Below are positions 1,145-12,780 of a stretch of DNA of 45,710 bases, piece by piece; the first letter of the stretch is position 1, and each line of letters opens with the position of its first letter. The notes under the pieces were generated by a model. That model was not told the origin of the DNA and ran no database searches. It worked only from the letters and a program-made list of their open reading frames with translations. The DNA is taken from the IMG/VR virus record IMGVR_UViG_3300033388_001228, positions 1 to 45,710 of that record. One strand, given 5' to 3'. The stretch is from a virus. Made by a program: the position numbers and the translations under genes.

Positions 1145-1358
1145 CAGTCACTCCCGGCTTAGGGTAGAAGGCTGACGGTGGGATAGGTGCAAGCTCATCG
1201 ATCCACGCCTTGGTGAACTTCAACCCGGACGGATTGATGACTGCCTTGGCGTTGTCGATCATGCTCGCAGCAATGATCTTGCCGGCAATGGATTTACCCT
1301 GACGCTGCAGTAGCTCGCGCTTTAATCTGAATGCTTCCATCTCTACGATGTTGCTCAT
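1137..1358 (-). CDS. Hypothetical protein
   Basis: 73 residues, ATG at 1358 overlapping the upstream stop (ATGA arrangement). Mostly helical: a basic N-terminal helix (EAFRLKRELLQRQGKSIAG) and a second helix (KIIAASMIDNAKAVI), followed by a proline-rich C-terminus. Small helical basic proteins next to terS sometimes bind DNA, but nothing here proves it. Its 3' end overlaps the next gene by 8 bases, confirming translational coupling in this minus-strand operon. Confidence 0.55.
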   Translation of the reverse strand: MSNIVEMEAFRLKRELLQRQGKSIAGKIIAASMIDNAKAVINPSGLKFTKAWIDELAPIPPSAFYPKPGVTDD

Positions 1359-1618
1359 GATGATGTAACTTCAAGCTCAGCCCTAATATCTTCTGGCTTG
1401 ATCTTGATGAACTGGCGTGACTCGATGAATGCAGCCATATCACGATCAAGCTCTTTGCTGGCAAGGCCACCAACAACGATGTATTTCGTGCCACGCTCAA
1501 TCCCTCTGAGCTTTTCCATATGGTAGCCAAAGATAAGCTGATGCCATGGAATACACAGCTCGTTAGCCAGTGACAGAACGTGCCGGTAAGAATCTGTTAT
1601 TACAATCACATATTTCAT
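1355..1618 (-). CDS. Small alpha/beta protein, unknown function
   Basis: 87 residues from the ATG at 1618. This start is chosen because the conserved leader ACTACCACCGAGGAAG lies just upstream (1638 to 1623) and supplies the Shine-Dalgarno; the open frame continues further upstream but without a ribosome site. The protein alternates strands and helices: MKYVIVITDSYRHVLSLANE, then a TKYIVVGG strand-turn. It looks like a small Rossmann-like fold without a recognisable P-loop. It shares the start-associated element with the plus-strand cassettes although it is on the other strand. Confidence 0.6.
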   Translation of the reverse strand: MKYVIVITDSYRHVLSLANELCIPWHQLIFGYHMEKLRGIERGTKYIVVGGLASKELDRDMAAFIESRQFIKIKPEDIRAELEVTSS

Positions 1619-1621
1619 AAA

Positions 1622-1641
1622 TCTTCCTCGGTGGTAGTGGT
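1622..1641 (-). promoter_or_regulatory. Start-associated leader element (copy on minus strand)
   Basis: On the minus strand this reads AACCACTACCACCGAGGAAG, ending six bases before the ATG at 1618. It is the same ACTACCACC-GAGGA element found before the cassette genes at 3505, 4223 and 5044. It provides the ribosome binding site. No flanking hairpin is obvious here. Confidence 0.6.
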
Positions 1642-1886
1642 TAATCGTAGTTTTCCTGATCGTTACTCTGTGACCCGGGGCCATACTGAGGCGCCTTCTG
1701 TTGTCGTGAAGGAGTAAGCGCACGACCCTCTCGGCGGGCCAACGTCTGCTTAATCTTCTTAGCGACGCTACCAGCAGATGCTAATACGCCAGCGCCCGGG
1801 GTTTTGCCCATGGGTATCGGCCCTTCTGACTTGCGACGAGCCTTAGCTTCTGTCTTCGTCTCGCCATAAATATTCTTTGCCGCCAT
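1641..1886 (-). CDS. Basic small protein, unknown function
   Basis: 81 residues from the second of two in-frame ATGs (1886); the first at 1892 touches the Shine-Dalgarno GAGGGA, whereas 1886 has the normal seven-base gap. The protein is rich in Lys, Arg, Gly and Ala (MAAKNIYGETKTEAKARRKS) with a central helix AKKIKQTLARREGRAL and a Gln/Ser-rich tail, so it is probably disordered and nucleic-acid binding. A candidate sigma70 promoter lies directly upstream at 1925-1953, suggesting that the left-most minus genes have their own transcription start. Confidence 0.55.
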   Translation of the reverse strand: MAAKNIYGETKTEAKARRKSEGPIPMGKTPGAGVLASAGSVAKKIKQTLARREGRALTPSRQQKAPQYGPGSQSNDQENYD

Positions 1887-1924
1887 AGTCATTCCCTCAA
1901 GTGGTTGGGATCTCCTCTGCTCTG

Positions 1925-1953
1925 AGTGTAGCTGATTCCCGCAGATTGCTCAA
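1925..1953 (-). promoter_or_regulatory. Candidate sigma70 promoter for the terS-side genes
   Basis: On the minus strand TTGAGC (1953-1948), a 17-base spacer, then TACACT (1930-1925). Each hexamer matches consensus at four of six positions. It lies in the small gap upstream of the gene starting at 1886 and would drive the genes leading to the small terminase. Moderate support only. Confidence 0.35.
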
Positions 1954-1957
1954 AAGC

Positions 1958-2149
1958 CTAGAACTTGCGGGTGTTGTATACCCGTCTCATCTTGTTGATG
2001 AATCTAGCCAGCTGGTTGGCGTCGGCTTCCGTCAGCCATTTATCAGTATCAAACATTACCCTGATTGGCTCGTTCTCATCATCGACATCAAGCTCGATGG
2101 TTACTTCTGTGTTTGAGTCTTTCAGGTAGATGACGTCGGTTATGTTCAT
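1958..2149 (-). CDS. Hypothetical acidic small protein
   Basis: 63 residues, ATG at 2149, overlapping the upstream gene by four bases (ATGA). The N-terminal half is strand-rich and acidic (MNITDVIYLKDSNTEVTIEL), followed by a helix containing TEADANQLARFINKMRRVY. Size and layout resemble many small phage proteins that pair a beta sheet with one helix. No conserved catalytic or metal-binding residues are visible. Function unknown. Confidence 0.55.
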   Translation of the reverse strand: MNITDVIYLKDSNTEVTIELDVDDENEPIRVMFDTDKWLTEADANQLARFINKMRRVYNTRKF

Positions 2150-2553
2150 GACTTGCGCTCCTTGTTGTATCCACGAATCAGGCGCTCGATCAGGCTGGTC
2201 TGCTCATCATTCATGATGACGTAAACTGGGTAACGACGATGACTGTCAGCCAAAAGCTCTCGCTTATACACCTCGTGCATGACGACGGCTTCTGCTGCTA
2301 ACGCCTCTCCACCAAGATAGCTCGACGGAGCATCTTCTCTGACGGCCATCGAGATCACATCCATCCCCGCATCAACGTCCTGCCGGGTGCCGTCATAACT
2401 TCCGCCGATAAATAAAGTTTTCGTGTAGCTCTTTATGTATTGCTCAAACATGATAAGCAGACCGCTACAGTCCAGATCCTTACAGAAGTCTTGGTGCTTG
2501 TCGGGGTTTTCTTCTCCGCAAACTCTGCAGACCATGCCGTCATAATTTTGCAT
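2146..2553 (-). CDS. Protein with N-terminal Cys cluster, unknown function
   Basis: 135 residues, ATG at 2553. The first 30 residues contain CRVCGEENPDKHQDFC and a following LDC, a pattern consistent with a small zinc-binding knuckle (CxxC, then Cys/His). The rest is helical: EQYIKSYTKTLFIGG, then EALAAEAVVMHEVYKRELLA. The gene shares one base with the upstream 2553-2927 gene and overlaps the downstream gene by four bases. Zinc binding is inferred from spacing alone; function unknown. Confidence 0.6.
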   Translation of the reverse strand: MQNYDGMVCRVCGEENPDKHQDFCKDLDCSGLLIMFEQYIKSYTKTLFIGGSYDGTRQDVDAGMDVISMAVREDAPSSYLGGEALAAEAVVMHEVYKRELLADSHRRYPVYVIMNDEQTSLIERLIRGYNKERKS

Positions 2554-2927
2554 TAGGCTTTCTTCTCCTTGCTATGCTCTGCAGCGTAGTCCTTCACCAG
2601 CTCACGCATGTCATCACGAGGACTCATACAGTAGCCCAGCTCATTCAGTGAAAAGTACAGATCACCACAGCTCTCACACATCCAGTCTGACGCTATCGGG
2701 ATCTCGCCGTCTTCACCGTAAATCCTTTCCTCGATGTCGCCATCAGGAATGCGTGCGCGCCCATGTTCAATACACAGCGAGCCGAGATCAATCAGCTCTT
2801 TGCATGAGCAGCATCGCTGTCTTCGCTTAGTTTCTAATGGCTTGAAGTCATCACTCACATGCCCAGACCACATCCAGTCACCCGGGTCAGGGTACCAGTC
2901 ACTATCACACTCACACATCAGGCCCAT
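2553..2927 (-). CDS. Cys-rich zinc-binding phage protein
   Basis: 124 residues, ATG at 2927 with a clear GAGGAGATC ribosome site. Cysteines occur as C-x-C near the N-terminus, RCCSCKELI in the middle and CESCGDLYFSLNELGYC towards the C-terminus, implying two treble-clef-like zinc sites. This arrangement (an acidic N-terminus, then CCxC, Gly-rich strands and a CxxC) is typical of a small phage family without known biochemical role. It forms an overlapping pair with the 2146-2553 gene. Confidence 0.65.
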   Translation of the reverse strand: MGLMCECDSDWYPDPGDWMWSGHVSDDFKPLETKRRQRCCSCKELIDLGSLCIEHGRARIPDGDIEERIYGEDGEIPIASDWMCESCGDLYFSLNELGYCMSPRDDMRELVKDYAAEHSKEKKA

Positions 2928-2948
2928 ATTGATCTCCTCATTTCGGCG

Positions 2949-3191
2949 CTATAACTTAATCGCCTTCATCTCTTTCACATGGCTCAAGCAATTCTTGCAG
3001 GTTATTCCGCCACGATTAACTTCCTTAAATCTGTAGACCGCGTCTGGATTACGCGCCCCTTCATCAACAAATTCACCAGTACACAATAGACATAAATCTC
3101 CCGAAGCATGTGTTATCACGTGCCAACACTGCTCATCAGGAGGGACATCAAAGCCGTCTTCGTTTACCAGTTGTTTTGTTAGTGTTGTCAT
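2949..3191 (-). CDS. Cys-rich small protein, first gene of leftward operon
   Basis: 80 residues, ATG at 3191. Contains a CLLC pair and a CKNC pair separated by about 33 residues, so a zinc ribbon is likely. It is the first gene after the leftward promoter at 3288-3316. The transcript begins about 90 bases upstream and has an 8-bp inverted repeat closing a folded leader, followed by a CCACCAACAACGAGAG ribosome site that is a loose variant of the start-associated element. Function unknown. Confidence 0.6.
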   Translation of the reverse strand: MTTLTKQLVNEDGFDVPPDEQCWHVITHASGDLCLLCTGEFVDEGARNPDAVYRFKEVNRGGITCKNCLSHVKEMKAIKL

Positions 3192-3214
3192 TAAGTCTCT
3201 CGTTGTTGGTGGAA

Positions 3215-3278
3215 GCTGGCTGGTTTCCAGTTCTTTCTGGCAAAGCCCTTGGCCTAAGTTTTTTCTCCATCAGCCAGC
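3215..3278 (-). ncRNA. Structured leader closed by 8-bp inverted repeat
   Basis: On the minus transcript GCTGGCTG (3278-3271) pairs perfectly with CAGCCAGC (3222-3215). Inside lies another hairpin, CCAG-AAAGAA-CTGG, and a partial GGC/GCC stem. The fold ends just before the CCACC-containing ribosome site of the gene starting at 3191. A core-like CTGATGG is present at the 5' side, but it lacks the partner bases of a hammerhead. Probably a cis-acting leader; function unknown. Confidence 0.4.
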
Positions 3279-3287
3279 CCCTATTAC

Positions 3288-3316
3288 AGTATATGGCAGT
3301 CTTTCTGGTAACTCAA
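3288..3316 (-). promoter_or_regulatory. Leftward sigma70 promoter
   Basis: On the minus strand TTGAGT (3316-3311), a 17-base spacer and TATACT (3293-3288). Its -35 hexamer overlaps the left arm of the inverted repeat at 3313-3326. It drives the leftward genes from 3191 down. It is arranged back to back with the rightward promoter at 3323-3351. Confidence 0.65.
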
Positions 3317-3326
3317 CAGTTGTTGA
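3313..3326. promoter_or_regulatory. Operator-like inverted repeat between divergent promoters
   Basis: TCAACA-GT-TGTTGA: perfect 6-bp arms around two bases. It covers the -35 hexamers of both divergent promoters, so one bound dimer could silence both. The same arms occur at 11203 and 13451, also at promoters. The likely ligand is the Cro/YdaS-like protein at 13177-13419 (inference). Confidence 0.55.
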
Positions 3327-3351
3327 CATAATAGTTAATCGTTGCTATATT
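3323..3351 (+). promoter_or_regulatory. Rightward sigma70 promoter
   Basis: TTGACA (3323-3328), 17-base spacer, TATATT (3346-3351): a near-consensus sigma70 promoter. Predicted start is near 3358, giving a leader of about 145 bases before the first cassette gene at 3505. That leader contains the hammerhead ribozyme. Confidence 0.75.
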
Positions 3352-3435
3352 CAGTGTGTATTAGAAATAAGCTGCACGGCACAGGATAATGTCGGGTTGA
3401 GGAGAAGCCGGACAGTAGACCGGAAACGAATCAAC

Positions 3436-3487
3436 AAGTCTGCAACATAGCAGTTGCACTGATGAGGCCTGACGCTGGCCGAAACTA
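3436..3487 (+). ncRNA. Type III hammerhead ribozyme candidate
   Basis: All conserved hammerhead parts are present in order. Stem III 5' strand AGT (3437-3439), cleavage triplet GTC (3438-3440), stem I TGCAAC-ATAGCA-GTTGCA (3441-3458), core CTGATGA (3459-3465), stem II GGCC-TGACGCT-GGCC (3466-3480), core GAAA (3481-3484), stem III 3' strand ACT (3484-3486). Cleavage is predicted between 3440 and 3441. Position 10.1-11.1 is G-C as expected. Stem III is only three pairs, so activity might need flanking tertiary contacts or dimers. The ribozyme lies in the 5' leader of the cassette operon; cleavage would leave a 5' hairpin 64 bases before the first ATG. Confidence 0.75.
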
Positions 3488-3504
3488 CCACCGAGGATCT
3501 AACC
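3473..3504 (+). promoter_or_regulatory. Start-associated leader element, copy 1 (fused to hammerhead)
   Basis: CGCTGG at 3473, then ACTACCACC at 3484-3492 followed by GAGGA and an ATG at 3505. The first bases double as the 3' side of hammerhead stem II and its GAAA core, so this copy is built into the ribozyme. The start lies 21 bases after the first A of ACTACC. Confidence 0.65.
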
Positions 3505-3675
3505 ATGAAGCAGCATAACAACCTGAGTCTGTCTGACGTCCTGATCGCTATTGCGCTGGCGCCAGTATCCAATAAGCACAACCCTTCGGCAGCGGCTCTG
3601 TCCGTCACTCCCAAGGGTCAGCACTTAGTTAACCACTACATTGGCGGCTACCACTTCTTCACGGTCGCCAGTTAG
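3505..3675 (+). CDS. Small cassette protein, unknown function
   Basis: 56 residues, ATG at 3505 preceded by ACCGAGGATCTAACC. Translation begins MKQHNNLSLSDVLIAIALAP and continues into a His/Asn-rich C-terminus with two closely spaced aromatic patches (IGGYHFFTVAS). It is the first gene behind the hammerhead-containing leader, so its ribosome site is brought near a new 5' end if the ribozyme cuts. Too short for a family assignment; the strong ribosome site and position make it likely real. Confidence 0.55.
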   Translation: MKQHNNLSLSDVLIAIALAPVSNKHNPSAAALSVTPKGQHLVNHYIGGYHFFTVAS

Positions 3676-3718
3676 CATCACTTAGTTAGTGACCACTAAC
3701 CAATATAAGGAAACGATT

Positions 3719-3955
3719 ATGAGAAACGCGATACACATACAGGCCATAGAGGCCAACGATTCTTACTCTGGCAAACCTGAAGCGGTCTTGAGGATCTACC
3801 ACGCTCATCACCATAACGCAGTAGAGGTTCACCACTCATTCAGTAACGCGGCCATTGGCTGCATCTCTGGGTGGGTTGAGGAGGGTTACGTTGTCCTCTC
3901 TGATGAAGAGAACGTAAAGGAAGATCTTAGCCGCAGGATCGTAGCTGCAGCTTAG
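3719..3955 (+). CDS. Small His-rich protein, unknown function
   Basis: 78 residues from the ATG at 3719, chosen over an upstream in-frame ATG at 3689 because AAGGAAACG sits just before it. Sequence begins MRNAIHIQAIEANDSYSGKP and contains a His-rich stretch, YHAHHHNAVEVHH, that could bind metal. The C-terminal half is acidic and helical. It follows the 3505 gene by 43 bases in the same direction. Unknown function. Confidence 0.55.
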   Translation: MRNAIHIQAIEANDSYSGKPEAVLRIYHAHHHNAVEVHHSFSNAAIGCISGWVEEGYVVLSDEENVKEDLSRRIVAAA

Positions 3956-3960
3956 TGGCT

Positions 3961-4024
3961 CAAGTGAAGTGTCTGGCTCCCCGGGCGCTTTGCTGGACTT
4001 ACTACCACCGGCAGGAGAAACATC
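3961..4024 (+). promoter_or_regulatory. Structured start-associated leader, copy 2
   Basis: CAAGTG (3961-3966) abuts a 10-bp hairpin (AAGTGTCTGG, loop CTCC, CCGGGCGCTT; 3967-3990), then TGCTGGACTT, ACTACCACC (4001-4009) and GCAGGAGAAAC before the ATG at 4025. Arm sequences differ from the other copies while pairing is kept, so RNA structure appears selected. Confidence 0.65.
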
Positions 4025-4159
4025 ATGAAAGAAACAATCGATCTTACACCTACCAAAGAAGGCTACATTCACATGCTGACTGTGATCATTGAAAGCAGCA
4101 CCAAGCCCAGTGATATTAAGTGGGCCAAGAATGAGCTGTTCAAGTTAGCACGCGGTTGA
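4025..4159 (+). CDS. Small helical phage protein
   Basis: 44 residues, ATG at 4025 behind the structured leader with GCAGGAGAAAC. Sequence begins MKETIDLTPTKEGYIHMLTV and ends KWAKNELFKLARG. This layout, a tyrosine helix followed by IIESSTKPSDIKWAKNEL, matches a widespread small phage family that lies in early cassettes and has no known biochemical role. The stop at 4157-4159 is followed directly by the next structured leader. Confidence 0.65.
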   Translation: MKETIDLTPTKEGYIHMLTVIIESSTKPSDIKWAKNELFKLARG

Positions 4160-4160
4160 T

Positions 4161-4222
4161 CAAGTCGAGGCTATCCATCTGGGTGGCCTCTGCTGGATTT
4201 ACTACCACTGAGGAGATCTGCC
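4161..4222 (+). promoter_or_regulatory. Structured start-associated leader, copy 3
   Basis: CAAGTC (4161-4166) abuts a 10-bp hairpin (GAGGCTATCC, loop ATCT, GGGTGGCCTC; 4167-4190), then TGCTGGATTT, ACTACCACT (4201-4209) and GAGGAGATC before the ATG at 4223. CAAGTC directly before the hairpin is the same hexamer that carries the hammerhead cleavage triplet in copy 1. Confidence 0.65.
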
Positions 4223-4414
4223 ATGCCTGCATTATGTGACAAGTGCCGAAACGAGGATCTGTCTGTTTGGGATACCCATCGGGTGGCTGAACTTACGACA
4301 GACTTTTTCGGCAAACCAATAAAGATAGTCAAGTATCTCTGCAATGAGTGTCTTGGCCATGGTGAAAACATTCACACGAACAACTACCACAAGGAGAAAC
4401 ATCATGCCGCATGA
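4223..4414 (+). CDS. Zinc-ribbon-like small protein
   Basis: 63 residues. Two CxxC knuckles, CDKC at residues 5-8 and CNEC near residue 40, are separated by about 31 residues, as in a zinc ribbon. The C-terminus is His/Asn/Lys-rich. Expressed from leader copy 3. Its 3' coding end contains another ACTACCAC copy (4383-4390) which serves as leader for the overlapping next gene at 4404. Probably a nucleic-acid or protein-binding zinc domain; exact role unknown. Confidence 0.6.
   Translation: MPALCDKCRNEDLSVWDTHRVAELTTDFFGKPIKIVKYLCNECLGHGENIHTNNYHKEKHHAA
4383..4403 (+). promoter_or_regulatory. Start-associated leader element, coding-embedded copy
   Basis: ACTACCAC at 4383-4390 then AAGGAGAAACATC and ATG 4404. 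The element lies inside the end of the previous gene, yet keeps the 21-base distance to the start seen in copies 1 and 4. Confidence 0.55.
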
Positions 4415-4607
4415 ATTTGATGACTACACAGCTGTCGGGATCTGCGAAGGGTTCGTTGAGTCTGATAGCGAAGAGCAGGTTATCGCTGCTTGGCAATACC
4501 TGATCGACAAGGGTTTGTGCTGGCAGCTTCAGGGCTGGTTCGGCAGAGCAGCTGAGTCGCTCATCGAGCAGGGCGTCTGTCACCACAAAGAGGAGAAGGT
4601 GTCGTGA
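4404..4607 (+). CDS. Conserved small phage protein (WQLQGWFGR type)
   Basis: 67 residues from the ATG at 4404, chosen because AAGGAGAAACATC precedes it; it overlaps the previous gene by 11 bases. The core, AAWQYLIDKGLCWQLQGWFG, followed by RAAESLIEQGVC, is a well conserved small helical family in phages of Gram-negative bacteria, with no known function. The stop overlaps the GTG start of the next gene (GTGA). Confidence 0.7.
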   Translation: MPHEFDDYTAVGICEGFVESDSEEQVIAAWQYLIDKGLCWQLQGWFGRAAESLIEQGVCHHKEEKVS

Positions 4608-4774
4608 GCGTGATCATCAACCAGCCTGAACTCAAAGAGGACTGGCAAACCAGAGTGCGCGGCAAACTCAAGGATGAGTACGATATCTACGTGAGCCTTT
4701 GTGATGATGGCGATGGCCACGATATCGATACCGGGCTACCACTTAAAACTTTCGACGAATGGCTTAATAGCTGA
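4604..4774 (+). CDS. Small acidic protein with GTG start
   Basis: 56 residues starting with GTG at 4604 that overlaps the upstream TGA; the ribosome site is the AGGAGAAG in the end of the previous gene. It reads (M)SVIINQPELKEDWQTRV, then a strongly acidic middle (SLCDDGDGHDIDTG) and a C-terminal LKTFDEWLNS motif. Such FDEWL endings recur in small phage proteins placed beside the preceding family. Translational coupling supports it as a real gene. Confidence 0.55.
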   Translation: MSVIINQPELKEDWQTRVRGKLKDEYDIYVSLCDDGDGHDIDTGLPLKTFDEWLNS

Positions 4775-4783
4775 GGAGAATGT

Positions 4784-4981
4784 ATGGCAGTAAAAATTAT
4801 CAAGATCCTTTCCTGCAGTGGGTGTCCACATAAACAAGAGATTGGACACCTCTGCCTGAAGGGGCCGAACGTATACGAGGTTGATCACTACTTCTGTGGT
4901 CTTACCGTCGAGTCTTTCGAGCTAACGAACATTCGGGTCTTGCCTGACTGGTGTCCTCTCGAAGACTACAACTCAAAGTAA
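4784..4981 (+). CDS. Cys-containing small phage protein
   Basis: 65 residues, ATG at 4784 preceded by GAGGAGAATGT. Residues 11-14 are CSGC followed by PH, then single cysteines at LCLKG and YFCGL and a final PDWCPLEDY. Four to five cysteines with a terminal WCPL motif match a common small phage zinc-type protein of unknown role. Expressed within the rightward cassette row; the next leader with a hairpin begins directly after its stop. Confidence 0.6.
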   Translation: MAVKIIKILSCSGCPHKQEIGHLCLKGPNVYEVDHYFCGLTVESFELTNIRVLPDWCPLEDYNSK

Positions 4982-4983
4982 AT

Positions 4984-5043
4984 CAAATCGTGGCTCTTCA
5001 AGGAGGGGCCACCGTTGGATTAACTACCACCGAGGAGGATGTT
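4984..5043 (+). promoter_or_regulatory. Structured start-associated leader, copy 4
   Basis: CAAATC (4984-4989) abuts a 9-bp hairpin (GTGGCTCTT, loop CAAGG, AGGGGCCAC; 4990-5012), then CGTTGGATTA, ACTACCACC from 5023 and GAGGAGGAT before ATG 5044. Same order and spacing as copies 2 and 3, with different arm sequences. Confidence 0.65.
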
Positions 5044-5313
5044 ATGTCCTACCCATATCGATGCAGCAAACCCGGCTGCCGTAAGCGTATCGCTCTCAAG
5101 CAAAAAATTGAGCAGTACGTTGACGGCAAAAATTGTCCGGCGTGTGGGAAAGACTCCCTGAAGCTGGACACCAACAAACGTCGTGAGGGCCGTCGCATGA
5201 GATGTTCGTGTGACGGTTATCACTTCCCGCACCGCAAAGGATCTTTGTGGTGCATCCATTCAACCATAGTGCCAACCGATGACGATCATCGGAACCGCGA
5301 CGTAAGGAGGTAA
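5044..5313 (+). CDS. Zinc-finger phage protein
   Basis: 89 residues from the ATG at 5044, selected because the ACCGAGGAGGAT ribosome site immediately precedes it. Contains CSKPGC near the N-terminus, CPACGKDSL near residue 38 and a C-x-C (RCSCDGYHFPHRKGS) near residue 55 with a final WC. The C-x-CDGYxFPHRKGS ending is characteristic of a phage zinc-ribbon family placed among early genes. Zinc would fold the domain; DNA or protein binding is likely but not shown. Confidence 0.65.
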   Translation: MSYPYRCSKPGCRKRIALKQKIEQYVDGKNCPACGKDSLKLDTNKRREGRRMRCSCDGYHFPHRKGSLWCIHSTIVPTDDDHRNRDVRR

Positions 5314-5315
5314 CC

Positions 5316-5504
5316 ATGTCGTTAGTCAGACCAACTGAGTATGAGTACCAAGTTTTGATGGAGGCCGGCGAGTACGAAGAGGCGGCCACCAAGGCTTACT
5401 TGCTACATGAACGGCTCGCAAAGGAAGCTGATAAGTGGCTCAACCATGCGGCCGATGCACAGCTTAAAATCACCCTCAAGGGGTGCGATGTTAAAGAAGA
5501 TTAA
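5316..5504 (+). CDS. Small helical acidic protein
   Basis: 62 residues, ATG at 5316 with a strong AAGGAGGTAACC ribosome site two codons after the previous stop. Nearly all helix: EYEYQVLMEAGEYEEAATKA followed by LLHERLAKEADKW. The acidic, coiled-coil-like helices suggest a small binding partner protein. No catalytic motif. Unknown function. Confidence 0.6.
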   Translation: MSLVRPTEYEYQVLMEAGEYEEAATKAYLLHERLAKEADKWLNHAADAQLKITLKGCDVKED

Positions 5505-5572
5505 ATTGTTAAAGAGCCTATAAATTATAGCTCAAACAGTAACTTAACTCTACCAACGTAAGGAGAATCATC
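5505..5572 (+). promoter_or_regulatory. Leader with hairpin and CTACCAAC variant of the start-associated element
   Basis: Between stop 5504 and ATG 5573: an AT-rich hairpin GAGC-C-TATA/TATA-GCTC (about 5514-5533), then CTCTACCAACG and TAAGGAGAATC. CTACCAAC starts 23 bases before the ATG, matching the spacing of the ACTACCACC copies with one changed base. TATAAAT could also serve as a -10, but no good -35 is seen. Confidence 0.4.
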
Positions 5573-6352
5573 ATGGATTTAATGCTACATTGTGGAGGCG
5601 CTGAAGTGCCTCGCCAAAAACTCAACATCGTTGAAACACCACAACCAACGCAGACTTGGACGCCGATTCCACACTGGCAGCTGGTCGATGAGGTTGAGCG
5701 GTCGCTTGTCAACACTGGCTTCAATATTGTCAACCAATCGCATGCCTTATCTCGTAAGGATGCCCGGTACTTCGGGTTGTTTGAGATCACCAACGGCAAC
5801 AACAACGACGATTACAACACCGTCGTGGGCCTGCGTAACTCTCACGACAAGTCGTTCCCGGCTGGGCTGGTCATCGGCTCTGGCGTGTTCGTGTGTGACA
5901 ACTTGGCGTTCTCTGGCGAGATCAAGTTCGGTCGTCGGCACACAGCCAACATCGTGCGTGACTTGACTGGACTGGTCGATGCTGCGGTGGGTCGGATCAA
6001 TGCCCTGCGAATATCTCAGGACGCTCGGATCGATGCGTACAAGCAGGCTGAGCTTTCACAGACTCAGGCAGATCACTTGCTGATCGAGTTGCTGCGCGCA
6101 CGTGTGGTGACGTCTACCAAGATCCCGAAGATCCTGAAGGAGTACGAGGATCCACGGCACTTTGAGTTCCGCGAAGATGGTGAAACAGTGTGGCGTTTCT
6201 TCAACGCTGTTACTGAGAACCTGAAGGGCGGGCTTGCTGACTTACCTCGTGTTGGTCAGGCGCTCCATGGGATCATGGATGGTGCTGCAGGGTTGGTTAT
6301 CGAAGTGATGCTTCGTTTGGTATCGGGGGATTTTTCCTTACTACCACCGTAA
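5573..6352 (+). CDS. DUF932-family protein
   Basis: 259 residues. Clear family features: the start MDLMLHCGGAEVPRQ, then WTPIPHWQLVDEVE, a central RKDARYFGLFEI, the highly conserved VVGLRNSHDKSFPAGLVIGS and VFVCDNLAFSGE, then an RHT motif and a helical C-terminal half. DUF932/DUF945 proteins occur on plasmids and phages; their biochemical role is not established. The last codons (SLLPP, then stop) are encoded by an ACTACCACCGTAAG string identical to the start-associated leader, so the 3' end looks made by recombination with a leader. Confidence 0.8.
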   Translation: MDLMLHCGGAEVPRQKLNIVETPQPTQTWTPIPHWQLVDEVERSLVNTGFNIVNQSHALSRKDARYFGLFEITNGNNNDDYNTVVGLRNSHDKSFPAGLVIGSGVFVCDNLAFSGEIKFGRRHTANIVRDLTGLVDAAVGRINALRISQDARIDAYKQAELSQTQADHLLIELLRARVVTSTKIPKILKEYEDPRHFEFREDGETVWRFFNAVTENLKGGLADLPRVGQALHGIMDGAAGLVIEVMLRLVSGDFSLLPP

Positions 6353-6355
6353 GTC

Positions 6356-6550
6356 TTAAATCAATCCTTCCTTCTTCGCAAACCATTCCGTTACTGGTAC
6401 CACGTTACTCTCACGATCAAACTCATTCATGTCGATCTGTGATTTTGGAATCCACACTGGATCCTTCTCACCGAAGTCGAACAGTATCGCGTCAGCGTTG
6501 TCGCCATGATACTCGATGTGATCGAACGCCAGCTCTACATGCTCACTCAT
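6356..6550 (-). CDS. Small phage protein with WIPKSQI motif
   Basis: 64 residues from the ATG at 6550, which overlaps the end of the previous gene; an AAGGGG ribosome site lies upstream. The sequence is strand-rich and contains AILFDFGEKDPVWIPKSQI followed by VTEWFAKKEGLI. A tryptophan plus PKSQ(I/V) and a terminal (P)EWxAxKxGL is a recurrent phage protein signature of unknown role. Last gene of the leftward helicase operon, ending four bases from the convergent DUF932 gene. Confidence 0.65.
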   Translation of the reverse strand: MSEHVELAFDHIEYHGDNADAILFDFGEKDPVWIPKSQIDMNEFDRESNVVPVTEWFAKKEGLI

Positions 6551-6821
6551 CGCCAACCCCTTTGCTTCTAGCATAATCATTAACCAACTGTTCAACATGA
6601 GGATGCTTCATAAACTTAAGAACCACTCGCTGTAATTCTATATCGCACTCAATGCATAACGGCCTGTAGTTATTTCCATCCGAACATATTTGCCATTGAA
6701 ATTCTGCTTGGCTGCCGCATCTTATGCATGGCAGTCTGAGTATTCCTATCTCGGTGTACGGAACCTTTCTGCGTACCTGCCACATAAAAACTCTTCTATA
6801 CCTTGGTGACTTTTTCATCAT
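6543..6821 (-). CDS. Zinc-ribbon phage protein (CIRCG/CIECD)
   Basis: 92 residues; ATG at 6821 overlapping the previous stop (ATGATGA), with a second ATG at 6818. Two knuckles, PCIRCGSQAEFQWQICSDG and RPLCIECDIELQRVVLKF, are typical of a phage family with a single zinc ribbon followed by a helix (KHPHVEQLVNDYA). The family sits with replication and recombination genes but has no assigned biochemical role. Basic N-terminus, RRVFMWQVRRKV, could contact nucleic acid. Confidence 0.7.
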   Translation of the reverse strand: MMKKSPRYRRVFMWQVRRKVPYTEIGILRLPCIRCGSQAEFQWQICSDGNNYRPLCIECDIELQRVVLKFMKHPHVEQLVNDYARSKGVGDE

Positions 6822-7111
6822 GATGGCTCAATGTTTAATTTAATATCTGGAGAGTCAGCCATAGGCGAGTAGCCTTCCTCGAACGCTTCGGCTGGCGAGA
6901 ATGATTCGTAGCCGTCTTTGTACTTCACATAGTAGCCGCCAGCCCTTGGTTGATGCCTGTCTATATAAACGCCAGAAACATTGATCACTACATCTTCTCC
7001 ATTCACATCAAGCGTAAGCTCTGCGTTTGCATCGCTGTCATACACATTGACGTCTGTTATTTTGGCGCCCTCAACAACCTTGTTGCATTTATATTTTGGT
7101 AAGTCACTCAT
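6818..7111 (-). CDS. Conserved phage protein with SPAEAFEEGY motif
   Basis: 97 residues from the ATG at 7111; an in-frame GTG one codon earlier is possible. Begins MSDLPKYKCNKVVEGAKITD, a pattern of a Cys/Lys strand followed by a beta-sheet, and ends with HQPRAGGYYVKYKDGYESFS then PAEAFEEGY. This C-terminal signature is a very common small beta-rich phage protein of unknown function. Its 5' end shares one base with the stop of the resolvase gene. Confidence 0.75.
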   Translation of the reverse strand: MSDLPKYKCNKVVEGAKITDVNVYDSDANAELTLDVNGEDVVINVSGVYIDRHQPRAGGYYVKYKDGYESFSPAEAFEEGYSPMADSPDIKLNIEPS

Positions 7112-7503
7112 CACTCATCCTCCATAGGAATTATTCTCACTACTGTTTTTTCTTTACCCTTCTCACACCGCACATCCATGACAGTCGGCATCGTTATGAT
7201 GCACTCGGTAGAGTCGTCTTCAATGAGGCCAACTCCTGACTGGTGTGTCGCAGTTAACGCATCAATCAATCCTTTCATACCTCCGAACAAACCGTCCCAG
7301 TCACGACGTCTCTGGCCCCATGAGTGACGCTCGATTATTAGAACGCATCTCTTTACTGGCTCTGTTGATCTTGGCCCTACGGCCTCTCTGACCATCCAAG
7401 CCAGCTCCACGGTATGGCCTCTTTGTTTTCGCCAGTGCCACCTGACGTACTCATTTAGCATCGGCGTCCGAACTGGGATCTCAAAGATAATTTCTTTCGA
7501 CAT
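7111..7503 (-). CDS. rusA: RusA-like Holliday junction resolvase
   Basis: 130 residues, close to RusA length. RusA resolves four-way DNA junctions by paired cuts and needs conserved acidic residues. Here the signature RRRDWDGLFGGMKGLIDAL carries the two aspartates, and GVGLIEDDSTECI carries the downstream acidic cluster; strand-rich N-terminus (EIIFEIPVRTPMLNEYVRWH) fits the family. Lies with a helicase and a nuclease-like gene, so it probably trims recombination intermediates before packaging. RusA identity is from motifs only. Confidence 0.8.
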   Translation of the reverse strand: MSKEIIFEIPVRTPMLNEYVRWHWRKQRGHTVELAWMVREAVGPRSTEPVKRCVLIIERHSWGQRRRDWDGLFGGMKGLIDALTATHQSGVGLIEDDSTECIITMPTVMDVRCEKGKEKTVVRIIPMEDE

Positions 7504-7726
7504 ATTCCTTCAGCTCCTTAACCGTTTTAGCGTGCTTAACAACATTGCTGTCTCGCTTATCCTTAAAAAGATCGTACCCGCTTTTCATTCTTTCTTTGTT
7601 GTAGATGTTCCTCCGTAGATCGGTCGGCCTAATGAAAACAAAGAACCCCTCAACACCATCATCCCCACGAGTCCTGACGTAGCCCTCGTGGGTCAGCATG
7701 TTCCTACTGTATTCCCACTCGATCAT
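7481..7726 (-). CDS. Hypothetical protein
   Basis: 81 residues, ATG at 7726. Charged, with a strand-rich N-terminus (MIEWEYSRNMLTHEGYVRTR), a short hydrophobic strand (GFFVFIRPTD) and a basic helical C-terminus (VKHAKTVKELKEYVERN). It overlaps the resolvase gene by 23 bases and the upstream gene by four bases. No metal-binding or catalytic motif. Unknown function, possibly a small partner of the resolvase cluster. Confidence 0.55.
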   Translation of the reverse strand: MIEWEYSRNMLTHEGYVRTRGDDGVEGFFVFIRPTDLRRNIYNKERMKSGYDLFKDKRDSNVVKHAKTVKELKEYVERNYL

Positions 7727-8238
7727 CGTTCTTGCTTTAACGCCCGCTCAACAACGCACTTCGGACACTGACAATCACCTTTGTCTCCGCGCAACCCATT
7801 AAGCATCTCGATAAGATCGTCGATCATGTTGGTACCTTGCGGATCAAGGACAAAAAACATGCCATCCTCGTTCTCACCAAAGGCTCCCATCGATGACATC
7901 GTCATCACCTTACCTTCTCTCGGATCGCCGAAGAAGAACTTAAGCTCACTTTCGTCGGTGACATTATGCTCGCTATTTGATTTTACCTTTTCGACCAGCT
8001 TAATCATCTCGCCGATCGTCATCTTTTCCAGTACTACACGATCTGCATTTTCTTTGTTGTCTGACACATCACTCTCCTTTCTCAGTTGTTTTAATAATCT
8101 ATACGCATCACCAGTCTTCATTGAGGTTAAGTCTCGCGGTATGAACGTGCCTTGACATTTCGGGCATGCCCTCGTGTCGCCAAGCTGCTCACATAAAGCG
8201 TTCATAACAATATCCACTACTTCGTCTGGAACTTCCAT
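7723..8238 (-). CDS. Hypothetical protein with two CxxC knuckles
   Basis: 171 residues, ATG at 8238. Cysteines occur as CPKC near residue 25 (RACPKCQGTF) and as CQCPKC near the C-terminus; the middle is helical with acidic linkers. The two knuckles are far apart, about 130 residues, so they could come together in one zinc site or form two. Four-base overlap with the next gene. Function unknown. Confidence 0.55.
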   Translation of the reverse strand: MEVPDEVVDIVMNALCEQLGDTRACPKCQGTFIPRDLTSMKTGDAYRLLKQLRKESDVSDNKENADRVVLEKMTIGEMIKLVEKVKSNSEHNVTDESELKFFFGDPREGKVMTMSSMGAFGENEDGMFFVLDPQGTNMIDDLIEMLNGLRGDKGDCQCPKCVVERALKQER

Positions 8239-8603
8239 TATCTCATATCCATAAAGCTAAGGTCGATATCTGAGAACGCACCGAACTTCTCTTCGACGTA
8301 CTCAGCTATCTCTTTTTTTATAGTTGACTTGCGCTTCTTTTTATCCGAATAAATATTATACGTTAGCGACGTTCCCCATATGGTGTCCTTGACGCTGTGA
8401 CCTATTGTTGGGCTGTTAAGAGAAGTCTGATAACGGCTTTTTCTTTTCTCTATGGTTGTGAATGCTTCATTGTTTAACACAAGTCTTGAGTCATTCTCAG
8501 CAAGCACCTCAACCTTACCCCAGTGATATTTATTCCCGATCTCTTTGTTAATCATGCCCGGGCTAATTACTATCTCAACCCTGTGGTGGTGTAGTGTTTT
8601 CAT
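8238..8603 (-). CDS. Hypothetical protein
   Basis: 121 residues, ATG at 8603. N-terminal half is strand-rich (HHRVEIVISPGMINKEIG and GKVEVLAENDSRLVLN), then a basic patch (YSDKKKRKSTIKKEIAEYV) and an acidic C-terminus. The start overlaps the stop of the upstream gene (ATGA). No recognised family. The basic lysine run could bind nucleic acid. Confidence 0.5.
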   Translation of the reverse strand: MKTLHHHRVEIVISPGMINKEIGNKYHWGKVEVLAENDSRLVLNNEAFTTIEKRKSRYQTSLNSPTIGHSVKDTIWGTSLTYNIYSDKKKRKSTIKKEIAEYVEEKFGAFSDIDLSFMDMR

Positions 8604-8968
8604 CCTGTCTTCCTCAGTAATTGAAATCTTTCCTTCGGCAGGAACGCGCCGTCCGGGGAAACCATATCCTTGTACGCATGCATTAGGTTATCAATCTTCA
8701 CGAACATCTTTTTATCTCTGTACTCGACAGCAATAATAAACGACGCATGGAAGAACTCGTTGAGGAATTTTATTTTTCTCATATCCTGAATGTCGATACG
8801 CATATCGGGCAACGTATTCCAATCCTCGTCAACCTTGTAGTCAACTATGAAGGCTCTGGTCTTGCCATCTTTCAGGTACATGTGAATCCTGTCTTCCATT
8901 CCCTTGGCTTCTGGGAATGGAATAATAGTTCCGCCCCACTGCTCTTCAATTGTTTTTAATATACTCAT
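8600..8968 (-). CDS. Hypothetical protein, possible nuclease-fold relative
   Basis: 122 residues, ATG at 8968. Contains TRAFIVDYKVDEDW and, further on, FIIAVEYRDKKMFVKID, an alternation of strands with acidic and lysine residues that is reminiscent of PD-(D/E)XK folds, but the active-site triad is not convincing. It is directly followed on the transcript by small genes and preceded by a better nuclease candidate. Overlap with both neighbours is four bases, so this is a coupled set. Function uncertain. Confidence 0.5.
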   Translation of the reverse strand: MSILKTIEEQWGGTIIPFPEAKGMEDRIHMYLKDGKTRAFIVDYKVDEDWNTLPDMRIDIQDMRKIKFLNEFFHASFIIAVEYRDKKMFVKIDNLMHAYKDMVSPDGAFLPKERFQLLRKTG

Positions 8969-9456
8969 AGCTTCTCCAACTTTATAAACTTAACTGTATC
9001 TGTGTTCGCAAAGTAGAATGATTGAAGCTCTTCTGTTTGCTTGTTCATCTTGGCAGCCTTCACCCACCTCTTCTCGTCGCCATCGTTAACAATAAGCATA
9101 GCCATGCAGCTCATGTTGTCGCCAAGCACAACGTAGGCGTTAGGCTTTCTTTCTTTTCCATCGAAGGTCGATACCGAGTCAACAATAAAGTGTTGCTTGA
9201 ACGGCCAGCTGCTCCTTCCAAAAAACTTCTGAGTTATGCGCTTCACCTCGATGGTCTGGCTCCCCATCCCCTCCTTGTAGACGTACATGTCTCCACTGTC
9301 AGAATGCTCTCTCCAGTCAGCCCTCTTCTCTGCCTTTGTCATTGGCGGAAGTAATACCTTGTAACCACGAGAACAAAACCAGAACGCCACAACCGCGACA
9401 GCTATCTTGCTTTTATCGAGACGTTCGAGGAACGCCTTGTGAGTGCCTTCGTTCAC
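8965..9456 (-). CDS. PD-(D/E)XK nuclease-like protein
   Basis: 163 residues. Starts with GTG at 9456, overlapping the helicase stop (GTGA), with AAGG six bases upstream. Residues around 45-75 read SDSGDMYVY then QTIEVKRIT: an aspartate, a short loop, then a strand with E-x-K, the usual PD-(D/E)XK active-site layout. Before it is a helix with WFCSRGYKVLLPP, as in Holliday-resolvase-type folds. A Mg-dependent nuclease acting with the adjacent SF2 helicase is plausible. The call is motif-based and not certain. Confidence 0.55.
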   Translation of the reverse strand: MNEGTHKAFLERLDKSKIAVAVVAFWFCSRGYKVLLPPMTKAEKRADWREHSDSGDMYVYKEGMGSQTIEVKRITQKFFGRSSWPFKQHFIVDSVSTFDGKERKPNAYVVLGDNMSCMAMLIVNDGDEKRWVKAAKMNKQTEELQSFYFANTDTVKFIKLEKL

Positions 9457-10967
9457 GACGCCTTACGCCTGAAGCTTGCCTTGATGTTCAGGTGTTTAAT
9501 GTAACCGTCGAACGCTACGTTAGGCGGAGCTAGTGTGCGACTGAAATCGCCACCCGGCTTCTCCTTGAACTTGTCTTTGTATTTGTAGTAGGCCCAGCCA
9601 GAGTGATGGCCCTTGTCTTTAGCGTGCTGCAGGAACATCGAATACCAGTGCTGCTTGTCATCGGCGCTGTACTTTTCTTTTTTCTTTTTCTTTTCTTTCG
9701 GGAGTTCAATCAACTCACCACGCGCAGTCTCTACATCCCGAGTGTCTTCGCCCAGCGGCGTGCCACACTTCGGACAGATATGCTGCTTCTTGAATATGTT
9801 GCCGCATGCGGAGCATACGAATTCCTTCTCCTCCCCAACCTTCGCGTCATCTTTGAGGGCCGCGTCTCTCTCCTGAATAGTTCTGTTATCCAGCGACCAA
9901 TCATGCTCCTCGTCAACTTGCCCATGTCGTAATACGTTCCCTGTGTGATCCATTATTAAACAGTCACCACCGTCCCACTTCGGGCGGAGTCCACGACCAG
10001 CCATCTGTAAATATTTAACTAACGACTTGGTTGGTGCCGCCATAAGAATGCACGATACGTTCGGCATGTCTGTGCCTTCCGTAAACACCTGACAGTTCGA
10101 CAGGATCTTAAACTTGCCTGCCTCGTACTGCTCGATGATAAGGTCGCGCTCTTTCATTGGCGTCTTACCATCGATGTGTGCTGCCGGTATTCCTACAGCA
10201 TTAAACTTCGCTGCGATCGCACGAGAGTGCGCCACGTTAACTGCGAACGCAATGGTCTGCCTGCCTTCCGCATACTTAATCCAGTGATCAACGACGTTAC
10301 CAACCAGCTTAGCGTCGTTCATAATCACTGCAAGCTGGTCTTCAACATAATCACCGCGTCGCACCGTCACGCCTTTCAAGTCAGGCACGTTCGGCACCAT
10401 GTAAGAAGCCTCAGCAAGATACCCATTATCCATCAGGAACCTGACCGTAGGGCCAAGCACCAGATCATCAAAGTATTTGCCGAGGCCTTTTCCATCTCCT
10501 CTCGCAGGGGTGGCCGTGACACCGATGATTATTGCATCGGCGTAATGATCAAAAATTCTTTCGTAAGTTTTACTGCCAACGTGATGTGCTTCATCAATGA
10601 TAACGATGTCGGCTTCCGGCATATCTATCTGGGTTTTTTCTCCCATGGCCCGGGCGCGCAGTGTATCGATGCTGGCCAGCTGGATCTCTGCAAAAATGCT
10701 GGCCGATGACCCTGACATGATGATGCCGTATGGCACCTCTTCAATCTCCATGTGTCCCGCCGCCTGCTTCACCAGCTCACGACGGTGAACGAGGAATAGC
10801 ACCCTCTTCTCTTTTTTGTGGGCGCCCTTAATTATTCTGGAAAAGTAAACAGACTTGCCGCTACCGGTGGGTGATTGAATAAGGACTCTTCTGCTGCCGC
10901 ACCTGATCGATGTGATGGTGGCCTCATGAAGATCGTCCTGATACTGCCTGTGTTCGCGCTCCATCAT
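9453..10967 (-). CDS. SF2 DEAD/DEAH-type helicase with zinc finger
   Basis: 504 residues. SF2 motifs in order: Q-like region RQYQDDLHEATI, Walker A SPTGSGKS (motif I), DEAH box IIDEAHHVG (II), GVTATPARGDG (III), NCQVFTEGTDMP (V) and QMAGRGLRP (VI). A C-terminal CSACGNIFKKQHICPKCG forms a zinc ribbon, then a lysine run and a short WY-rich domain. It would couple ATP hydrolysis to remodelling of branched or duplex DNA during replication/recombination. I chose the ATG at 10967 because it overlaps the previous stop (ATGA); a GTG at 11012 adds 15 residues. Confidence 0.85.
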   Translation of the reverse strand: MMEREHRQYQDDLHEATITSIRCGSRRVLIQSPTGSGKSVYFSRIIKGAHKKEKRVLFLVHRRELVKQAAGHMEIEEVPYGIIMSGSSASIFAEIQLASIDTLRARAMGEKTQIDMPEADIVIIDEAHHVGSKTYERIFDHYADAIIIGVTATPARGDGKGLGKYFDDLVLGPTVRFLMDNGYLAEASYMVPNVPDLKGVTVRRGDYVEDQLAVIMNDAKLVGNVVDHWIKYAEGRQTIAFAVNVAHSRAIAAKFNAVGIPAAHIDGKTPMKERDLIIEQYEAGKFKILSNCQVFTEGTDMPNVSCILMAAPTKSLVKYLQMAGRGLRPKWDGGDCLIMDHTGNVLRHGQVDEEHDWSLDNRTIQERDAALKDDAKVGEEKEFVCSACGNIFKKQHICPKCGTPLGEDTRDVETARGELIELPKEKKKKKEKYSADDKQHWYSMFLQHAKDKGHHSGWAYYKYKDKFKEKPGGDFSRTLAPPNVAFDGYIKHLNIKASFRRKAS

Positions 10968-11182
10968 TTTTGCTTTTCGTATGTCGCGCACTTCTTTCCA
11001 TCGTGCGCGCACATCCAGCGTAGCTCAGAGGACTTGTCCAGAGATATCCAGTTTGGCCGATAAGAATCCGGCAGCGATGGCATTGGACAACTACATTTGG
11101 CCGGGCGATCCCCTCGAATGCGGCCAGCTTTATCTTTGGCGTGATTCTGATCCCAGTACTTACAAGTTTTACAGCTTTGCAT
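10964..11182 (-). CDS. Cys-rich zinc-binding protein, first gene of helicase operon
   Basis: 72 residues starting MQSCKTCKYWDQ; cysteines at CKTCKYW, KCSCPMP, WMC and KKCATYE give about seven Cys, enough for one or two zinc ions. Such Cys-rich openings with a final CATYE are common among small phage proteins. I preferred the ATG at 11182 over the overlapping ATG at 11187 (different frame) because this frame has the zinc pattern and GGAG lies at the right distance. Preceded by promoter and operator at 11203-11238 and by a CTCTACCACCGGAG leader. Confidence 0.65.
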   Translation of the reverse strand: MQSCKTCKYWDQNHAKDKAGRIRGDRPAKCSCPMPSLPDSYRPNWISLDKSSELRWMCAHDGKKCATYEKQK

Positions 11183-11189
11183 TTCATTC

Positions 11190-11202
11190 TCCGGTGGTAG
11201 AG
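11190..11202 (-). promoter_or_regulatory. Start-associated leader element at helicase operon
   Basis: Minus strand CTCTACCACCGGAG, beginning at the predicted transcript start (about 11202) and ending eight bases before ATG 11182. Because the promoter lies directly upstream, the element here is essentially the whole 5' leader, which shows it does not depend on a preceding hairpin. Confidence 0.5.
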
Positions 11203-11216
11203 TCAACAATTGTAGA
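11203..11216. promoter_or_regulatory. Operator-like inverted repeat at helicase promoter
   Basis: TCAACA-AT-TGTAGA: arms match the 3313 site with one change (TGTAGA for TGTTGA). It covers the -10 element and the start point of the leftward promoter at 11209-11238, the usual position of a repressor site. Confidence 0.45.
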
Positions 11217-11238
11217 GCAGCTCCCAGCAGGATGTCAA
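11209..11238 (-). promoter_or_regulatory. Leftward sigma70 promoter for helicase operon
   Basis: Minus strand TTGACA (11238-11233), 18-base spacer, TACAAT (11214-11209). The -35 is perfect and the -10 has one mismatch. Predicted start near 11202. Drives the operon 11182 down to 6356. Confidence 0.7.
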
Positions 11239-11473
11239 CCGGCCCTAATTAGCCCCTACTTGGTGACTACTTAGGCCATATTTATCCCCTTTCTTCCTGT
11301 GATAACCACGGAATACTTGGCTCCCTCGTCGGATCACCCGACAGTAACTTCACATGCTCACCGGACAGGGGTCGTCCTTTTCTTGAGTGAGATCCAGAAT
11401 CATTTAGAGTCCGACACAGACATAACCCGCATAGATTCGCTCTATCGTAAGTGTATCCGCCAGCGGAAAGGGT

Positions 11474-11501
11474 TTGAGCTTCGGAGGGATTGCGTTACAA
11501 T
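11474..11501 (+). promoter_or_regulatory. Candidate promoter for small RNA
   Basis: TTGAGC (11474-11479), 16-base spacer, TACAAT (11496-11501). The start would be near 11508, about 115 bases before the end of an intrinsic terminator. No ORF with a ribosome site begins in between. Confidence 0.5.
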
Positions 11502-11507
11502 GAGGTC

Positions 11508-11622
11508 TGACGCGATCGGTTCCACTTTAACCTTTCGAGTTCAGAGAGGCGACACACCTCGACTGAACAGGCAACAAGAATAGACCCGCTTGGCTTCCCC
11601 AGTCAAGTGGGTTTCTCTTTTT
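11508..11622 (+). ncRNA. Candidate phage small RNA
   Basis: About 115 bases from the promoter at 11474-11501 to the terminator at 11584-11622. It contains an internal hairpin with GTTCA (11539-11543) and GAGG (11546-11549) pairing with CCTC (11557-11560) and TGAAC (11564-11568) around a CGACACA loop. The 3' end is a 9-bp terminator stem with a T-rich tail. It lies in the control region between the leftward helicase operon and the rightward 11779 operon. No coding capacity with a ribosome site is visible, so a regulatory RNA is the best reading. Confidence 0.5.
11584..11622 (+). terminator. Intrinsic terminator
   Basis: ACCCGCTTG (11584-11592) pairs with CAAGTGGGT (11604-11612) over nine pairs (one G-T), followed by TTCTCTTTTT. 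Strong Rho-independent signal on the plus strand. A second palindrome, TTTTTCTG-GCC-CAGAAAAA, directly follows without its own T tail. Confidence 0.8.
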
Positions 11623-11744
11623 CTGGCCCAGAAAAAATTCACTGTGGCTGCATGTCAAGTCTTTTATTCTCTACACCAACACTGGGCTGCGGAGCGTTTT
11701 ACACTACTATACAAGCATATTCTGCGTTTCGAGAAAACTCATTT
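11623..11744. other. Non-coding gap after terminator
   Basis: Apart from the TTTTTCTG palindrome at its left end and the extended -10 promoter just beyond its right end, I see no gene, repeat or convincing structure here. The stretch 11239-11473 to the left of the small RNA also has no supported gene; an open frame there lacks a ribosome site. Confidence 0.5.
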
Positions 11745-11752
11745 GGTATAAT
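11745..11752 (+). promoter_or_regulatory. Extended -10 promoter
   Basis: TGGTATAAT: perfect TATAAT at 11747-11752 with the TG extension. No convincing -35, as is usual for this class. Start would be near 11759, giving a short leader that is almost entirely the CACCACCGAGGAG element before ATG 11779. Confidence 0.6.
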
Positions 11753-11757
11753 ATAAC

Positions 11758-11778
11758 TTCACCACCGAGGAGAATATT
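11758..11778 (+). promoter_or_regulatory. Start-associated leader element at 11779 operon
   Basis: CTTCACCACCGAGGAGAATA precedes ATG 11779. ACTACCACC appears as TTCACCACC, the GAGGAG part is intact. As at 11190-11202, the element directly follows a promoter. Confidence 0.5.
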
Positions 11779-12024
11779 ATGCAAGTAGTGAGATACAAAA
11801 CGGAGCAGGGTGTTTTTACCGGCATCCATATTGGCGACGGTAGGAAGTTCTTCCAGCTGATACTAATGGACGCTTCTGGCATCCGGGTTATCAAGGAGCC
11901 GCTCAACAATAAGCGATTCCTGAGAGAGATCCAGTACAGCGCAGCCAAGGCCCGGAAGTTATTCAGGGCAGCCGGTCGCAGGTTCGGCATCAGCAAAGCC
12001 GCACGCAAGGCGATCAGAGGATGA
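11779..12024 (+). CDS. Basic small protein, unknown function
   Basis: 81 residues with an excellent ribosome site (GAGGAGAATATT). Strand-rich N-terminal half (MQVVRYKTEQGVFTGIHIGD, then KFFQLILMDASGIRVI) and a very basic helical C-terminus (AKARKLFRAAGRRFGISKAA). The basic tail suggests nucleic-acid binding. Its stop overlaps the start of the cysteine peptidase-like gene (ATGA), so the two are translationally coupled and may work together. Confidence 0.6.
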   Translation: MQVVRYKTEQGVFTGIHIGDGRKFFQLILMDASGIRVIKEPLNNKRFLREIQYSAAKARKLFRAAGRRFGISKAARKAIRG

Positions 12025-12703: not shown

Positions 12704-12780
12704 TGGAGCAACAGGCGGGAGTCGAACCCGCAAACATCTGAGTGAAAGTCAGATGGCTTTACCAATTTGCCTACTGCTGC
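12704..12780 (-). tRNA. tRNA-Glu (anticodon UUC)
   Basis: Minus strand cloverleaf of 77 bases with encoded CCA: acceptor GCAGCAG/CTGTTGC (one G-T), D arm GGC-AAATTGGTAAA-GCC, anticodon arm TCTGA-CTTTCAC-TCAGA (anticodon TTC, the same loop as bacterial tRNA-Glu), variable TGTTT, T arm GCGGG-TTCGACT-CCCGC. The discriminator base is T, unusual for Glu where G is common. Sits between the repressor operon genes and the small membrane protein. Confidence 0.9.

Follow-up and report, generated by a model that had tools for sequence, protein, structure and literature searches.

A start-associated sequence in one phage lineage is most likely part of a portable translation-initiation leader

Why does one short sequence stand before many small genes of a phage, on both strands and at nearly the same distance from their start codons? 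The question is raised by the viral record IMGVR_UViG_3300033388_001228 of IMG/VR, whose whole stretch of 45,710 bases is called the window here, and by the element ACTACCACC within it, for which an original prediction, on positions 1622 to 11778, proposed a start-associated role at nine or more genes. We find that the element is real and lineage-specific, and that it is most likely a portable translation-initiation leader. More exactly, we lean on balance towards the view that it is the constant 3' part of such a leader, which precedes mostly small non-structural genes in one phage lineage.

At no more than 1 mismatch, ACTACCACC has 18 sites in the window, against a mean of 6.30 and a maximum of 12 in 100 shuffled sequences. 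Seven of the 18 begin 16-28 nucleotides (nt) upstream of one of the 63 called starts, where 0.16 would be expected (p=1.3e-10). This p value is post hoc since the word was taken from the same window, and as the word had been picked from the data, a de novo search was also run; it returned a 9-mer common, within 1 mismatch, to 7 of 62 upstream windows, a number that none of 200 random sets of windows reached. No enrichment in the window is seen for CCACCATCA, a control word of matching composition. Note that the genes were called with a custom-built caller and not with Prodigal, and that 5044 and 11182(-) were added by hand ahead of the counts.

The strong copies, i.e. those with at most 1 mismatch, belong to seven starts. 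Exact copies lie at 1630-1638 on the minus strand (20 nt between the element's first base and start 1618(-)) and, on the plus strand, at 3484-3492 (21 nt to start 3505, directly behind a hammerhead-like fold), 4001-4009 (24 nt to start 4025) and 5023-5031 (21 nt to start 5044). Copies with 1 mismatch are found at 4201-4209(+) (22 nt to start 4223), 4383-4391(+) (21 nt to start 4404) and 11193-11201(-) (19 nt to start 11182(-)). A weaker form with 2 mismatches, TCTACCAAC, at 5549-5557(+) is 24 nt from the start of the gene for a DUF932 protein (5573-6352, plus strand), and another with 3 mismatches, TTCACCACC, at 11758-11766(+) is 21 nt from start 11779; the latter copy (TTCACCACCGAGGAGAA) was found by inspection and is recognisable chiefly via CCACCGAGGAG. 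All nine start codons named in the original prediction are present, and the spacing of 18-24 bases that it gave agrees with the 19-24 nt measured across them; seven of the nine elements are strong, but those at 5573 and 11779 are weak. The copy at 4383 falls, as had been claimed, inside a coding end, that of gene 4223-4414. Three features go beyond the original prediction: a copy at 6340-6348 that precedes no start, the hammerhead-like leader of 3505, and the hairpin common to the leaders of 4025, 4223 and 5044.

The leaders follow the order 5' module, ACTACCAC, Shine-Dalgarno sequence (SD), short spacer and start codon, so that the element is the 3' end of the leader proper, and the 5' module may take one of several forms: a promoter start, a hairpin that recurs three times in the window and once in the related contig G028, or a putative hammerhead-like ribozyme. 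The suggestion that the element works behind three different promoters was not confirmed; strong consensus promoters, both sigma-70-like and matching 11/12, lie upstream of 3505 (3323-3351, plus strand) and of 11182(-) (11238-11209, minus strand). Its position behind hairpins was confirmed, as a common hairpin precedes the element in the leaders of 4025 (3958-4000), 4223 (4158-4200) and 5044 (4981-5022), all on the plus strand. The plan that these share with the hairpin at G028:1947 consists of an outer helix, an A.G mismatch, three pairs, a variable long stem and one base, followed by ACTACCAC, and all four hairpins beat their shuffles in folding (z of -2.8, -4.6, -3.8 and -6.1, respectively). 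The three-pair helix shows a double change from AGU/GCU to AAU/GUU which, although seen by eye and among the few sequences that four are, supports the predicted RNA structure. The element region itself is predicted to be single-stranded, with an unpaired probability of 0.71 in the seven strong genes; in 36 early-half genes other than these it is 0.50 (p=0.006).

A shared hairpin plan in three leaders would also be expected if the copies were functionless repeats left by a recent duplication of leaders, and AGGAGAAACATCATG after the element is likewise common to 4025 and 4404. The sequences upstream of the copies are, however, unrelated, the copies occur on both strands, and their core is kept at orthologous places in a relative of 75% identity. 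We consider this explanation very improbable.

The module ahead of 3505 is a hammerhead type III-like fold (3437-3486, plus strand) with the conserved core CUGAUGA...GAAA, the GUC site and stems I, II and III. In a search of 5.1 kb it scores 27.6 bits against Rfam RF00008 (E 0.0089) and does not reach the gathering score of 48.5; stem III has only 3 base pairs, and when the strand is folded in isolation its minimum-energy structure is not the complete hammerhead. This candidate may well be a self-cutting ribozyme. In a strict core-plus-stems scan of 2.84 Mb, which counts some contigs twice, the type III layout was found only in this phage, and type II cores were found in G006 (6; this relative corresponds to L222 and L224), G008 (3; L225), L201 (1) and L203 (1). 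Together with the single core of the window, 11 of the 12 lie 29-60 nt ahead of a called start; about 23 nt downstream of the remaining one is an ATG that was not called as a start. The Rfam type II family RF02276 has five matches in G006 (3 above the 37-bit gathering score), one in G007 and one in G008, the last at 26.8 bits and below the gathering score. In G006 a type II hammerhead is positioned at the 11779 homologue. For the orthologue of 3505 in G028, Rfam gives no hammerhead at gathering level, and none was seen in its leader by reading. The comparison of leaders in the window, G028, G006 and G008 therefore indicates that the same place can be taken by a ribozyme, by a hairpin or by a promoter start alone.

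Is the element kept when the phage diverges? The contigs G001 and G002 are pieces of the same phage (at least 99% identity), G028 and G003 show about 75% identity over the matched stretches, and G005, G006 and G008 lie further off. Searched with the word that the window had supplied, G028 has 8 sites, of which 4 fall in the start zone (0.13 expected; p=4.3e-6); a de novo search in G028 is not significant alone (5/36 windows, a count reached by 10 of 200 null sets). The element persists there at the orthologues of 3505, of 5573, where it reads ACTACCATT, and weakly of 11779, and it also occurs at 481-1239(-) and 1669-1881, two genes without a blastp match to window genes. At six paired places, one of them an orphan site, the core is identical at 48/54 positions versus 236/323 in the flanks (one-sided p=0.007). 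The element is probably selected.

The genes behind the element differ between the window and G028 in two cases. In G028 a 4025-type leader is joined directly to the 4404 orthologue, and the promoter-element unit of 11182 is joined directly to the helicase, where in the window the extra gene 11182 intervenes; from these pairings it follows that the leader is kept while the gene it precedes differs. The element is both retained at orthologues and common to different gene families. Because gene content changes right behind the element, there is circumstantial support for another proposal of the original prediction, a joint for cassette exchange. On the reading of a pure recombination joint, repeated identical starts would let homologous exchange bring genes in and take them out, and the element would have no part in expression. 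Orphan leaders exist and the phage encodes RecT-like and RecE-like proteins, both of which would suit such a joint, but nothing ties the element to RecT, and nine bases are short for homologous recombination. The window helicase start, the position of which is uncertain, has no copy to recombine with, and neither the strict placement before the SD nor the conservation above the flanks would be needed. We therefore regard a mere joint as quite unlikely.

Several observations weigh against a translation leader, or at least narrow it. The element is confined to two lineages: no significant enrichment was found in eight other contigs (G003, G005, G006, G008, G018, G007, G009 and G002), and at 1 mismatch the start zone holds 1 of 15 sites in G003 and none in the other seven. 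The homologue of 5044 in G028 (6241-6522(-), 48% identity) is on the opposite strand and without the element, and other leaders precede the DUF932 gene in G006 and G008, the homologue of 11779 in G006 and that of 3505 in G008. Homologues in relatives that do without the element had been named in the original prediction as evidence against it, and in part this is what the DUF932, 11779 and 3505 homologues of G006 and G008 provide; the element is therefore a trait of the lineage and not a requirement of those genes. Strong copies stand at 7 of the 43 genes left of 17850 and at none of the 20 genes beyond it (Fisher p=0.087); the contrast between early and late genes, by which a restriction to non-structural genes was also judged, is non-significant taken alone. 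The predicted accessibility of the SD is equal in genes with and without the element (0.51 vs 0.51), from which we conclude that the element does not unmask the SD, and composition (A+C of 0.75 vs 0.59) partly accounts for the openness of the element. Finally, no convincing rRNA complementarity was found for the element in E. coli 16S rRNA. Pairing with 16S rRNA was dropped as a candidate mechanism, the longest complement of the element there being 7 nt (798-804), a length that by estimate is within chance (about 0.3 such matches expected).

No element was found in the readable leaders of 13 more distant homologues of the 4404 protein (five without an in-frame start given). The 15-mer ACTACCACCGAGGAG occurs in 40 viral contigs, and several copies at starts are found only in L035, which is the same phage. 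The hairpin-element junction was found in 62 stretches, two of which belong to this phage and to G028; the remaining 60 appear to be chance matches, including L260 and L295, which were flagged by a loose SD rule. Among named phages there was no megablast match for window positions 1-12000 and no match for the 11779 protein, whose family also has no relative in prokaryote genomes; the capsid and helicase matches are all below 60% identity, and the DUF932 protein has six distant matches.

Copies of the element that precede no gene raise the most serious alternative. An orphan copy, ACTACCACCG, at 6340-6348(+) has neither SD nor gene behind it and is conserved in G028. Read on the minus strand, as CGGTGGTAGT, it is antisense and lies in the 3' end of a leftward gene that ends at 6356, between the last stop codon and a hairpin; the hairpin adjoining the orphan is, by reading, terminator-like in both directions, with the longer U run facing leftward. 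At 6303 the window lacks about 50 nt of the 3' end of the DUF932 gene as present in G001, so that this gene is shorter by that length and the terminator hairpin is broken, which may be a real variant or an assembly error. A second antisense copy, of 14 nt with 1 mismatch, follows the stop codon of a late gene at L214 5059-5072, in the left extension of the phage, and by reading, terminator-like hairpins follow the homologues of this gene. At no more than 1 mismatch the 14-mer has 5 occurrences versus none in 300 simulated sequences; the second copy is not due to chance.

These copies suggest that an antisense RNA of the phage might act on the element. Transcripts that run leftward and end in CGGUGGUAGU and a terminator hairpin would pair with ACUACCACCG beside the SD and block the whole class, including the helicase operon. 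It fits this idea that the orphan lies about ten nt ahead of its hairpin, that both terminator-like hairpins fold far better than shuffles (z of -4.8 and -5.4), that the 14-mer recurs beyond chance, and that computed 3'-end duplexes place element genes at 5/5 best in the window. Such a ranking, however, is built into the complementarity itself, and in G028 the best-ranked duplexes include those of genes that lack the element. Both copies could equally be orphan leaders left over from lost cassettes: at the first place the terminator is followed by a gene start in G006 and G008, and at the second the homologues of the late gene have terminator-like hairpins behind them. A pattern scan called no leftward terminator at 6340, where the support consists of complementarity and a terminator-like fold, and L132, which has a start word of its own, lacks a comparable antisense copy beside a terminator in the stretch examined. 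We judge an antisense target to be rather unlikely, although it is the leading rival. Going further, we might speculate from the sequence that early mRNAs share a ten-base tag next to the ribosome-binding site, behind self-cutting or hairpin leaders, and that RNAs from the ends of leftward genes, carrying its exact complement, later switch off the class, their own operon included; we hold this fuller scheme to be unlikely.

Returning to the translation-initiation leader, we infer that the element acts as RNA at the start of translation, and of the three functions put forward in the original prediction (enhancement of translation, binding of a phage protein, cassette exchange) a role at translation initiation appears to fit best. 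In such a scheme ACTACCAC would form an open C/A-rich stretch between the 5' module and the SD, and would provide a sequence-specific landing site next to the SD for the 30S subunit or for a factor of phage or host, whereby the element genes could be translated as a class. The 5' modules might define or protect the 5' end of the mRNA. As leader and start would be a self-contained unit, genes could be swapped behind the leader, and orphan leaders would stay where a gene was lost.

Other start words and neighbouring features are described here for their own sake. The DUF932-bearing stretch L132 5918-10815 has its own start-associated word, a hairpin followed by TTCCTCTCAC, at about seven starts. 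In a coarse screen of other DUF932-bearing loci, limited to the best-ranked rows and to seven loci looked at, several start words were extended SD or promoter words. L222, which belongs to G006, has a GOLLD RNA match at 10538-11002 (112.7 bits, E 7.2e-29) that is under the Rfam cut-off of 150 and overlaps a tRNA. The window further contains a tRNA gene on the minus strand (12707-12780), a gene of a YdaS-like repressor (13177-13419; Pfam E 4.6e-10, PHROG transcriptional repressor) that would fit a temperate phage, and internal repeats of about 130 bases with 72-75% identity within a gene of 1715 amino acids (36037-38502).

It is instructive to compare these features with known systems. Start-associated repeats are a known idea (PMC3203893), and a literature search, mostly outside subscription journals, gave no description of this element or of hammerheads combined with start-associated repeats. 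As regards the ribozyme, the HHphage hammerhead of haloviruses HF1 and HF2 lies 13 nt upstream of a helicase start (PMC3088659), and in both cases an early phage gene has such a fold in its leader. They differ in that G006 and G008 have several per genome and the window has one type III-like copy fused to a start-associated element. As regards the repeat, Citrobacter phage Mordin has a 26-bp repeat at 8 gene starts which its authors likened to start-associated sequences (SAS) (PMC4611695). Like our element, it stands at the starts of several genes, and it comes from a Gram-negative phage, i.e. a Gram-negative start-associated repeat is already in print and the claim of the original prediction is not the first of its kind. 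For the phage of the window, no result of the analysis supports a Gram-negative host. The sequences are unrelated (0 matches to the Mordin consensus in the window at <=3 mismatches), and a structured leader is not described for Mordin (PMC4611695).

The closest analogy is with the SAS of cluster K mycobacteriophages. There, in roughly a dozen non-structural genes, a short asymmetric repeat occupies the ribosome-binding-site position; its conservation extends past the SD, an upstream inverted-repeat part sometimes accompanies it, and its function is unproven (PMC12699233, PMC11373665). The likeness drawn in the original prediction fits the anatomy, namely a short asymmetric repeat by the SD, apparently in the non-structural region and sometimes with a structured part upstream. 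Homology is another matter: the 13-bp SAS consensus has 0 matches in the window at <=2 mismatches. In addition, the cluster K repeat as described includes the SD and lies 3-7 nt from the start, whereas the window element is upstream of the SD and begins 19-24 nt away. The extended form (ESAS) is reported to contain SigA-like promoters and was held not to form RNA hairpins, in contrast to the upstream part in the window, which is predicted to be folded RNA or ribozyme-like. The element is analogous to the cluster K SAS and not a member of that family. The cluster K sequences have been noted since 2011 and their function is still unexplained; a second lineage, in which the element is set apart from the SD, stands behind hairpins or hammerhead folds and has antisense orphans, makes the question open to simple assays. 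If a factor or an antisense RNA does read this tag, the phage would have a translational switch that acts on a whole class of genes.

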